The translations under genes and the position numbers were made by a program. Positions 12,517 through 39,166 of a stretch of DNA of 64,000 nucleotides are shown piece by piece; positions within the stretch are counted from its first letter, which is position 1, and each line of letters starts with the position of its first letter. A model generated the notes under the pieces. It worked only from the letters and a program-made list of their open reading frames with translations, did no database searches and was not told the DNA's origin. Source of the stretch: an uncultured Clostridia bacterium (GTDB taxonomy: Bacteria; Bacillota; DTU014); assembly GCA_900016865.1 (NCBI GenBank), contig FIZI01000006.1, positions 101,224-165,223 on the forward strand, given 5' to 3'.

Positions 12517-13530
12517 TTGAGACGTGTGGTGATGTGGTCCATAGCGCTCTATTTGGCCGCGACTATCGGAGTTCCGCTGGCTGTAGTCAAATTTTGGCAT
12601 TTAATCCCGTATTGGCATCGACACGATTCGATACAGGTAGCTGTTTATATGCATGAGACAGGCGCTTTGGACCGAATGGACCTGGAGGAGTACGTTCGCG
12701 GGGTCGTAGCCGCTGAGATGCCTGCCGGTTTTCACCAGGAGAGCCTCAAGGCACAGGCCATTGCTGCACGGACTTACGTAGCCGGGCGCCTGAAGCGTCA
12801 GGGAGGAAAAGGGTGTGATCGACATCCTGATGCAGACATCTGCACTGATCCTGCACATTGCCAAGGTTGGCTGTCTGACGACGAGCTTGTCGATAAGTGG
12901 GGTTACTTGAACTACTTCACCTACAAGCGCAAGATTGCCGAGGCCGTTGATGCGACTAAGGGGATCATACTGACGTATGACGGAGCAGTAATCGACCCGG
13001 TTTACCACGCGAATTCGGGTGGAGTGACAGAAAACTCTGAGGACGTTTGGTCGGTCAGGATACCCTATCTCAGATCTGTCAGGGGCGATTTTGAGTTGGG
13101 CACACCGCATTACCGCAACAGCTACAGCTTTGGTGTCTTGGAGCTTGAGAGCATGCTGGGTGTGGATCTGGTTGACAGAAGCGAGAGTGTAGAAGTTATT
13201 GATGGACACGAAATAAAGGTCGTAGTACAGGGCAACCTATCTGCTGATAGTGTTGAAATATTGGACCGGTCAGAAAACGGGCATGTTCGATTGGTTCGCT
13301 TTGGCGAGGCTGTGCTTACAGGACCCGAAGTGAGGCAGCGTCTGGGCCTGTCTTCTGCGCGATTCACCGTTGAAGTGCTCTCCGACCAACTCATCATCAC
13401 CACTATTGGATATGGCCACGGAGTCGGGTTGTCGCAATATGGGGCTAACGCCATGGCTAGTCTCGGCAACGATTATCGTGCGATTCTCCTCCACTACTAC
13501 ACCGGAGTTCAGTTTGCCAGACTGATATAG
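12517..13530 (+). CDS. spoIID: Stage II sporulation protein D (SpoIID)
   Basis: SpoIID is a lytic transglycosylase that works with SpoIIM and SpoIIP to degrade peptidoglycan during engulfment. The 337-residue protein has an N-terminal membrane anchor (residues ~5-28) and the SpoIID domain: DRMDLEEYVRGVVAAEMPA with the catalytic-type Glu, SLKAQAIAARTYV, YHANSGG, and the C-terminal GYGHGVGLSQYGANAMA. TTG 12517 is behind CAGGGAGG. Length agrees with B. subtilis SpoIID. No spoIIM or spoIIP is adjacent. A paralogue lies at 29607-30584. The 114-base gap upstream shows no clear sigma-A promoter, so a sporulation sigma factor is likely. Confidence 0.93.
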   Translation: MRRVVMWSIALYLAATIGVPLAVVKFWHLIPYWHRHDSIQVAVYMHETGALDRMDLEEYVRGVVAAEMPAGFHQESLKAQAIAARTYVAGRLKRQGGKGCDRHPDADICTDPAHCQGWLSDDELVDKWGYLNYFTYKRKIAEAVDATKGIILTYDGAVIDPVYHANSGGVTENSEDVWSVRIPYLRSVRGDFELGTPHYRNSYSFGVLELESMLGVDLVDRSESVEVIDGHEIKVVVQGNLSADSVEILDRSENGHVRLVRFGEAVLTGPEVRQRLGLSSARFTVEVLSDQLIITTIGYGHGVGLSQYGANAMASLGNDYRAILLHYYTGVQFARLI

Positions 13531-37863: not shown

Positions 37864-37943
37864 AGCGCCTCGTGTCTAGAGATATAGAGATGCTGGGCCG
37901 TGCCTACGCTGGCCGGAAGGAATGATTCCGAGTCAATTTTCTC

Positions 37944-37972
37944 TTGCCCAGCGAGCAATTCACGGGTATAAT
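37944..37972 (+). promoter_or_regulatory. Sigma-A type promoter
   Basis: TTGCCC (37944-37949), a 17-base spacer and TATAAT (37967-37972). It starts a ~400-base transcription unit that ends at the strong terminator at 38349-38378. Confidence 0.75.
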
Positions 37973-38044
37973 GCAGTCGAGGTCAATGTTTGGCCGTGTT
38001 TTCATTCATTGATTTATACTGGATTGAGAGAGGAGGTGGGCCAC

Positions 38045-38323
38045 GTGGAGAGGCGCCGCATTATCACACACATTCGGACAATAGGCATGGCGGATAGCTT
38101 TGGACTGGCGTATCGCAGTTTTACGCGCCTTCTTGCCCGCTGCGCCGCGAGTGTGATTGTGCTACTGGGACTTAGGTCTAGTCGCGTTATTGCCACATCC
38201 AATGTGTCTCTGAGTGCTTCGGACTTGTACAGCGGGCGCGGTCTGTCTGTTGCAGATCGGACCGATAACTCTCATAGCGTTGGCCTACTTCCGGTGGTTC
38301 TCGTGCTCAATCAAGGTGGATGA
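38045..38323 (+). CDS. Orphan small protein in its own transcription unit
   Basis: I do not recognise it. A perfect AGGAGGTG (38031-38038) lies six bases before GTG 38045, which opens a 92-residue frame starting MERRRIITHIRTIGMADS. The sequence has a modest hydrophobic stretch (LLARCAASVIVLLGL, ~29-43) and a Ser-rich second half ending in LLPVVLVLNQGG. A consensus-like promoter precedes it and a strong terminator follows, so the unit is complete. The strength of the ribosome site argues for translation, but the amino acid pattern is not typical of a conserved protein. It may instead be a structured RNA with a short reading frame. Confidence 0.45.
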   Translation: MERRRIITHIRTIGMADSFGLAYRSFTRLLARCAASVIVLLGLRSSRVIATSNVSLSASDLYSGRGLSVADRTDNSHSVGLLPVVLVLNQGG

Positions 38324-38348
38324 CATCTGTTAAGAGCAGCCGTATCAA

Positions 38349-38378
38349 GCCCACCGGATTACACCGGTGGGCTTTTTT
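38349..38378 (+). terminator. Strong intrinsic terminator
   Basis: GCCCACCGG (38349-38357) and CCGGTGGGC (38364-38372) form a nine-pair stem with a six-base loop, followed by six T residues. It ends the unit starting at 37967. Confidence 0.93.
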
Positions 38379-38426
38379 GAGGCCAACGCTCGCACCCAAG
38401 ACTTCGGAAAGGGGTACGTTGGCTTC

Positions 38427-38705
38427 ATGTATAAGAACGCAATGGACATCCTGCCAAAAAGCTTACTGGAGCAGGTCCAGAAGTATGTCCAAGGGCAAGA
38501 GATATACATACCAAAGCGATCCCAGACGCGGCTCAGATGGGGAGAGGCGAACGGCACACGCAAACAGCTTGATATGCGCAATCGAGCAATAGTGTCGAGG
38601 TACATGCGGGGAGAGAGCATAGAATCACTGATGGAGGAGTTCCACCTGAGCTACGACAGCATTCGCAAGATCGTCCGAAAGGGCAAGAAAGAACTGTTCA
38701 GATAG
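38427..38705 (+). CDS. CD3324-family helix-turn-helix protein
   Basis: A 92-residue protein resembling the CD3324 family of Clostridia. It opens MYKNAMDILPKSLLEQVQKY, has YVQGQEIYIPKRSQTRLRWGEANGTRKQL, and ends with a helix-turn-helix like segment (IVSRYMRGESIESLMEEFHLSYDSIRKIVRK). The family is presumed DNA-binding; targets are unknown. ATG 38427 is preceded by AAAGGGG; the frame is open to 38367 inside the preceding terminator region. It lies directly after the terminator at 38349-38378, so it needs readthrough or its own promoter. Confidence 0.78.
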   Translation: MYKNAMDILPKSLLEQVQKYVQGQEIYIPKRSQTRLRWGEANGTRKQLDMRNRAIVSRYMRGESIESLMEEFHLSYDSIRKIVRKGKKELFR

Positions 38706-38715
38706 ATTTTCGGCC

Positions 38716-38743
38716 GTTTCTGCGTCCAGAAACCGTGTATAAT
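38716..38743 (+). promoter_or_regulatory. Promoter with an overlapping palindrome
   Basis: A TATAAT at 38738-38743 is preceded by the palindrome GTTTCTG (38716-38722) and CAGAAAC (38727-38733) with a CGTC centre, covering the -35 and spacer. The -35 hexamer itself is poor. The palindrome could be a repressor or activator site. Confidence 0.5.
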
Positions 38744-38793
38744 AGGCGTGGGAGAAGGCTCTATACTAGCTCCCAAGAGGGAGGTGGTTGACT

Positions 38794-38823
38794 ATGATCA
38801 ACCAGAGGTGGTGGGAGGCCTAG
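38794..38823 (+). CDS. Nine-residue leader peptide with tandem Trp codons
   Basis: ATG 38794 to TAG 38821-38823 encodes MINQRWWEA, with two adjacent TGG codons. GAGGGAGGTGG (38777-38787) is a very strong ribosome site at ideal spacing, far better than expected by chance. Just after the stop come hairpins (GGAGGC/GCCTCC at ~38814-38829, TGAGAGC/GCTTCTCA at ~38830-38847) and then the stable stem at 38857-38886. This is the layout of an attenuation leader that senses charged tRNA-Trp. No trp gene is in the window. Confidence 0.55.
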   Translation: MINQRWWEA

Positions 38824-38856
38824 CCTCCTTGAGAGCCAGGCTTCTCATGTCTGGGA

Positions 38857-38895
38857 CTGCGGGCGCCGTGCCTTCGGCGCCCGCAGTTGTCTTTG
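38857..38895 (+). terminator. Terminator after the Trp-Trp leader peptide
   Basis: CTGCGGGCGCC (38857-38867) and GGCGCCCGCAG (38876-38886) form an 11-pair stem with an eight-base loop, followed by TTGTCTTTG. It would end a transcript of ~145 bases. The stretch from 38896 to 39015 shows nothing I can support. Confidence 0.7.
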
Positions 38896-39044: not shown

Positions 39045-39068
39045 CATGTTGAAGGGAAATCAATAGAG

Positions 39069-39166
39069 GGCCGTGCGACTGGCGGTTTGAGTGGAATTGA
39101 CCACGAGGGAGCACGGTCAGGATGCTTGATCGCCGACCGCCTGGGCAGCCTTGTCCAGGCGGTTTT
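39069..39166 (+). promoter_or_regulatory. Structured pflB leader, possible attenuator
   Basis: GGCCGTGC (39069-39076) pairs with GCACGGTC (39111-39118). Downstream ACCGCCTGG (39136-39144) pairs with CCAGGCGGT (39155-39163) and is followed by TTTTG, a terminator-like stem before the start codon. GGCGGT at 39081-39086 could pair with ACCGCC at 39136-39141 instead, which would prevent the terminator. Confidence 0.5.

Follow-up and report, generated by a model that had tools for sequence, protein, structure and literature searches.

A conserved small RNA with a nine-codon reading frame that appears to be co-regulated with a CD3324-family gene in Bacillota

Introduction

The window analysed here, a stretch of 64,000 nucleotides from an uncultured Clostridia bacterium, contains a very short transcription unit in which a nine-residue reading frame with two adjacent tryptophan codons precedes a terminator. 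The first-pass annotation regarded these codons as the mark of trp-type attenuation and considered an orphan attenuator, a small regulatory RNA or a functional micropeptide. Which of these, if any, is this mini-gene? Here, we show that its RNA is new and conserved and that the assignment to tryptophan control is wrong. Several features that the first-pass annotation had passed over are included in the analysis, namely a neighbouring gene of the CD3324 family with a Mor-like product, an operator shared by both genes, an internal Shine–Dalgarno (SD)-like element and a hairpin at the stop codon.

Anatomy of the locus

All elements of the mini-gene lie on the + strand. The -10 element TATAAT is present as described before (38738–38743) and a clear TTGACA-like -35 element is not seen in the sequence of this locus. 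The predicted small RNA of about 140 nt extends from a GGGA 5' end to the terminator (38750–38894, both ends being placed from promoter and terminator) and its core (38750–38823) matches the covariance models R1–R3 introduced below. The first stem, P1 (38750–38774), pairs GGGAG (38750–38754) with CTCCC (38770–38774). It is followed by the ribosome site SD1, GGGAGGTGG (38779–38787), which is strong, with a hybridisation energy of -13.8 kcal/mol to the anti-SD CACCUCCUU, and by the hairpin P2 (GGTTGA/TCAACC, 38786–38803), which holds the start codon in its loop. The frame MINQRWWEA with the stop codon TAG (38794–38823) was also recognized correctly and includes an internal SD-like element GAGGTGG (38805–38811) that reaches from the third base of codon 4 to codon 6. 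Around the stop codon the hairpin P3 can form (GGAGGC/GCCTCC, 38814–38828); in the window a longer alternative pairing is favoured over it. The unit ends with the terminator stem ACTGCGGGCGCC/GGCGCCCGCAGT (38856–38894), for which we count 12 base pairs and not 11 as annotated, and its T-rich tail turned out to be short, interrupted and weak.

Compared with dinucleotide shuffles the mini-gene region folds with z = -6.0, better than all shuffles, and the transcript alone reaches z = -4.7, the terminator stem supplying much of the signal in both cases. The CTCCC arm of P1 may alternatively pair with SD1. A universal switch between P1 formation and SD1 sequestration was considered and rejected; such pairing is possible in all homologues, weak in several of them and expected from purine-rich SDs.

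Homologues and conserved structure

A DNA search found the core 81% identical in the nearest relative, the only genome of the same family (E = 2e-31), which excludes a chance origin, as well as short core matches in other families. The core pattern was matched in 9 of 399 genomes of the phylum (0 for the reversed control) and in further Bacillota contigs of the genome collection. With the covariance models R1, R2 and R3 the family comprises 24 distinct homologues from nine Bacillota family groups, with one copy per genome and, as far as the titles show, all from draft or metagenome assemblies. Model R3 matches 12 of the 399 phylum genomes, all twelve being accepted homologues already found, and in one class the RNA is present in five of five genomes. 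Weak matches of R1 (L107, L109, L110–L118) and several pattern matches (L047, L048, L053–L057, L059) were judged false. The viral contig L066 carries two matches to the core pattern at 12769–13094, 303 nt apart.

The homologues show the same 5' to 3' order, i.e. P1, SD1, P2, AGG or GGAGGU at codons 4–6, P3 at the stop codon and the terminator. P1 has the form GGGA../..UCCC, elsewhere GAGG/CCUC or GAGAAC/GUUCUC, with compensatory changes in four of its six pairs and 95.5% of the alignment cells paired. P2 is paired in 97% of the cells and mostly invariant, and in distant homologues GUGAU/AUCAC or GGUUC/GAACC replace GGUUGA/UCAACC. For both stems together 96.3% of the cells are paired, changes on both sides amount to 21 cells versus 5.5 in shuffles, with far lower values for slid versions, and the covariation score is 0.22 versus 0.09 in shuffled alignments (reached by 0 of 500), all these counts including related sequences in an alignment fitted to the model and with a largely invariant P2. 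A stop-spanning hairpin is found in essentially all homologues (mean z = -1.8), with sequences that differ between them. The first-pass annotation had made its reading depend on the conservation of the small frame and its hairpins in close relatives, and both are conserved; as to the particular comparison it proposed, the stems P1 and P2 do show compensatory changes and the second Trp codon is not kept.

The RNA is free-standing, having its own promoter and terminator and not being an operon leader, as follows from sequence and comparison. The earlier description of a compact self-contained unit with promoter, hairpins and terminator agrees with the sequence and with the operator described below, which is found in 23 of 24 loci. 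The statement that no trp gene lies downstream is likewise correct, and no constant downstream gene exists among the 14 loci compared. The first downstream gene is convergent in nine of these 14 and otherwise unrelated, therefore a cis-acting attenuator is excluded as general function. Judged by these comparisons, the small RNA of the mini-gene is real, conserved and free-standing.

At gathering score no Rfam family, T-box or other known riboregulator matches the element in the window or in eight homologous loci, and neither Rfam nor the literature searches yielded a description of it. Sub-threshold matches to nrdJ, tfoR and HCV were dismissed as weak and as resting mainly on the terminator stem. 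Among known elements, a c-di-AMP riboswitch (RF00379, 76.8 bits) was detected at 336–487 of L061.

The nine-codon frame

In 23 of the 24 homologues the frame has exactly nine codons with the stop at codon 10 and starts with ATG or TTG; the exception, L077, has 11 codons and a GTG start. Stop codons are TAG (16), TAA (7) and TGA (1), and every homologue possesses an SD and one of the three start codons, with SD1 at a spacing of 7–8 nt. This constancy of length despite three different stop codons, together with the constant SD and start, indicates translation, so that the frame is very probably translated.

The amino acids are poorly conserved except where RNA constraints fix the positions. Tandem Trp occurs in two of 24 homologues, i.e. 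in that of the window and in L058, the nearest relative, and codon 7 outside this pair encodes L, I, S, D, C or G. Trp is placed at another codon in three homologues, stands at codon 4 in MIFWRYGKL and MIQWRYGKL, and is completely absent from two (MINQRRCEF and MINQRRCEA). Codons 7–9 vary widely, codon 9 being mostly L, V or A, so that some degree of peptide constraint is possible. Codon 5 or 6 is AGG in every homologue, and this AGG or GGAGGU is kept while the surrounding residues change; the preceding G is retained in most homologues with codon 4 being Q, L, P, M, K, R or W. The internal element hybridises to the anti-SD with a mean of -10.6 kcal/mol versus -5.5 kcal/mol for synonymous recodings, an enrichment that is modest per locus (single-locus p 0.025–0.34); the element is weaker in L139. 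Between GAGGU and codon 9 there are 8 nt in most homologues, the window included, and 5 nt in L141, L143 and L144. The anti-SD (CACCTCCTTTC / CACCUCCUU) was confirmed in two carrier genomes, and the 16S end pattern was not found in the other carrier assemblies including the genome of the window. That most of the fixed residues track RNA-constrained bases suggests selection on the RNA more than on the peptide.

A CD3324-family gene and a shared operator

Directly upstream of the mini-gene lies a gene for a protein of 92 amino acids with a Mor-like helix–turn–helix (38427–38705, + strand), which belongs to the CD3324 family (NF040785, E = 4.8e-32), matches Pfam Mor above cut-off (E = 4.6e-7) and is the proposed activator of both promoters. 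Such a gene is found near the RNA in 22 of 24 loci. It ends 22–70 nt before the RNA in 18 of them and is located 1.2–2.7 kb upstream on the same strand in four; no CD3324 gene was found within 2.6 kb (L141) and 6.0 kb (L143) upstream of the RNA in the other two. In L064 the CD3324 gene and the RNA are set apart by an apparent insertion with a Dam-methylase-like frame, some 1.2 kb upstream of the latter, and the operator is kept. CD3324 genes without the RNA also exist, some of them followed by tRNA-like genes, as in L068 and L070 from another family, where two tRNA-like genes take the place of the mini-gene. A sequence comparison of the protein with the PDB gave chance matches only and literature searches on CD3324 and similar RNAs revealed nothing relevant.

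Both promoters are preceded by a putative 18-bp operator of the form GGAA...TTCC centred near -56. At the mini-gene it reads AAGAAAGAACTGTTCAGA (38685–38702, + strand) and overlaps the CD3324-family gene at that gene's 3' end; its distance to the RNA, counted from its first base, is 65 nt, and that from its end to the -10 element is 35 nt. At the CD3324-gene promoter it reads CGGAAGGAATGATTCCGA (37914–37931, + strand) and is located 35 nt before TATAAT (37967–37972). With a matrix trained on CD3324-gene promoters only (consensus CGGAAAaAAcnntTCcGA) the highest-scoring site of the 300 nt preceding the RNA is located at a distance of 64–68 nt from P1 in 23 of 24 loci; in L077 this matrix did not find it at the expected place. 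In the window the two sites are the top two of the scan, the scanning matrix having included them. The combined pattern of operator and -10 element, both at a distance of 35 nt, has two matches in the genome of 2.19 Mb, which are these two promoters; since the pattern was written after both sites had been seen, this speaks for rarity and not for discovery. The overlap with the end of the CD3324 coding region occurs in reading frames differing between loci and the operator is kept where the RNA is 1.2–2.7 kb away, therefore protein coding does not explain it.

A gene for a Mor-family protein nearby (22 of 24 loci) and an inverted-repeat site at fixed distance (23 of 24 loci, not L077), two features expected of a Mor-activated promoter, are both found here. 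As Mor of phage Mu binds an inverted-repeat element upstream of the promoter Pm (PMC4390567), the CD3324 protein is the natural candidate and, by this analogy, the probable binder of the operator. The module with its shared operator is well supported by comparative data, and the mini-gene RNA and the CD3324-family gene appear to be turned on jointly.

The leader of the CD3324-family gene

A comparison of 18 leaders points to a further peculiarity of this module, a conserved leader of the CD3324 gene that resembles an attenuator. In the window the CD3324 leader (38032–38426, + strand) contains a leader frame with SD (GTG at 38045 to stop at 38323), a terminator at about 38348–38376 and an arm CGTTGGC (38417–38423) directly before the start codon of the CD3324 gene, all on the + strand. 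The predicted alternating arms GTTGGCC/GGCCAAC end on this start codon. They differ by family with complementarity being kept (GGCCAACG/CGTTGGCC, AGTGCCAA/TTGGCACT, GTGGGCAG/CTGCCCGC), and three leaders (window, L058 and L077) possess a terminator-like hairpin in addition. Such an arrangement resembles attenuation that depends on translation, and the module may therefore respond to the translation state; a literature search yielded no paper on this leader. In two large-genome relatives (L069 and L075) the apparent leader frames share an SMQS stretch.

Proposed mechanism and alternative readings

We suggest that the CD3324-family Mor-like activator drives its own gene as well as the free-standing RNA of about 140 nt, that an attenuator-like leader containing a small frame precedes the coding region in the CD3324 mRNA, and that the RNA would most likely act via ribosomes that load and terminate on it and not via the peptide sequence. 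As a whole, this two-promoter module with a ribosome-engaging RNA is the best explanation and we give it an even chance of being correct. SD1 and the start-codon hairpin would load the ribosome. With codon 9 in the P site the internal AGG or GGAGGU is found 5–8 nt upstream, near the spacing of SD and start codon at initiation (7–8 nt). Because of this similarity (8 nt from GAGGU to codon 9 in most homologues) we propose that base pairing of the internal element with the anti-SD may keep the terminating ribosome in place within the stop-codon hairpin. In this way ribosomes could be captured, or their availability reported, by an RNA whose circuit also includes an activator that apparently needs leader translation for its own synthesis. 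That we deal with a new class of ribosome-capturing RNAs, in which the mini-gene frame serves to position a ribosome during termination on an internal SD within the stop hairpin and, together with the Mor-like activator, forms a two-promoter circuit reading translation capacity, is a tentative idea that may well prove incorrect.

Alternatively, the nine-residue peptide itself could be the product, binding for instance CD3324, the ribosome or another target, with the RNA being a tiny structured mRNA. The constant length of the frame, the nearly invariable N-terminus M/L-I, the common occurrence of R with W or Y, the often charged codon 8 and the bias of codon 9 are in line with this reading, whereas most fixed residues coincide with RNA-constrained bases (the P2 arm and the internal AGG) and the free codons vary as widely as in MINQRWWEA, MITKRWLKE, MINRWRSGA and MIFWRYGKL; we consider it a serious but less likely alternative. 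Less probable still, though also a rival to be reckoned with, is a base-pairing RNA with targets in trans, among which the CD3324 mRNA leader is a possibility, and with a secondary role for the frame. The RNA is free-standing, structured and terminated, several families have GGCC or GGCCAA in the P1 loop, and both RNA and CD3324 leader carry SDs of the GGAGGU type. However, cognate duplexes of RNA and leader (-62.0 kcal/mol) hardly differ from non-cognate ones (-58.8 kcal/mol) with ranks scattered from 1 to 18 of 18, i.e. there is no cognate preference beyond a possible effect of composition, the P1 loop is overall without conservation, and conservation of the nine-codon frame would not be explained.

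An orphan trp-type attenuator sensing the charging of tRNA-Trp, or a trans-acting derivative of it resembling rnTrpL, would account for the tandem TGG before the terminator in the window and L058, but conserved Trp control codons are missing, the downstream genes include no gene of trp biosynthesis or transport and Rfam offers no match at gathering score, so that we regard it as extremely improbable. In the window a ZTP/ZMP (pfl) riboswitch is present upstream of the pflB-like gene (39065–39153, RF01750, 65.8 bits). A cis-acting leader of the downstream gene (pflB in the window) has the same strand in its favour in the window, L058, L051 and L060, and deserves practically no credence given the convergent or unrelated genes elsewhere and the riboswitch that sits between RNA and pflB.

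Comparison with known systems

Enterobacterial trpL and other leader-peptide attenuators combine a short reading frame, a strong SD, a hairpin at the end of the frame and a terminator. The mini-gene shares all of these, but it has neither a constant downstream gene nor conserved regulatory codons and apparently uses its own operator-controlled promoter. The leader of the CD3324 gene resembles translational attenuators of the erm type in having a leader frame and alternating arms that end on the start codon, yet a conserved arrest peptide is not seen in it. The RNA rnTrpL is generated by attenuation upstream of trp genes, whereas the mini-gene has no trp gene and its Trp is not conserved. Common to both is a small leader-type RNA with a Trp-containing peptide, which in Sinorhizobium meliloti (peTrpL) acts in trans (PMC7298713).

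SR1/SR1P of Bacillus subtilis is a dual-function small RNA (PMC8501984) and like the mini-gene RNA is free-standing with a small frame. The frame of the mini-gene, in contrast, has nine codons only, with its length kept and its sequence hardly, and no base-pairing target was found for this RNA in the CD3324 leader. Regulatory minigenes such as that in axe-txe are very short frames whose translation is regulatory (PMC8708949); here we deal with a separate RNA gene with conserved start and stop hairpins and an internal SD. That frame length is conserved over nine families and amino-acid sequence hardly at all suggests that selection on a small RNA gene can be for translation as such and its geometry instead of for the peptide.

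In phage Mu, the element bound by the Mor dimer has 16 bp with inverted repeats of 5 bp and is centred at -43.5 of Pm (PMC4390567; see also PMC4287176). Both systems thus have a Mor-domain protein and a short inverted-repeat site upstream of a promoter, but the module described here is chromosomal, its predicted site comprises 18 bp near -56 and its predicted targets are the activator's own gene and the mini-RNA. For the CD3324/Mor-like family, on which the literature searches yielded no paper, an operator, a promoter under autoregulation and one partner RNA can thereby be predicted.
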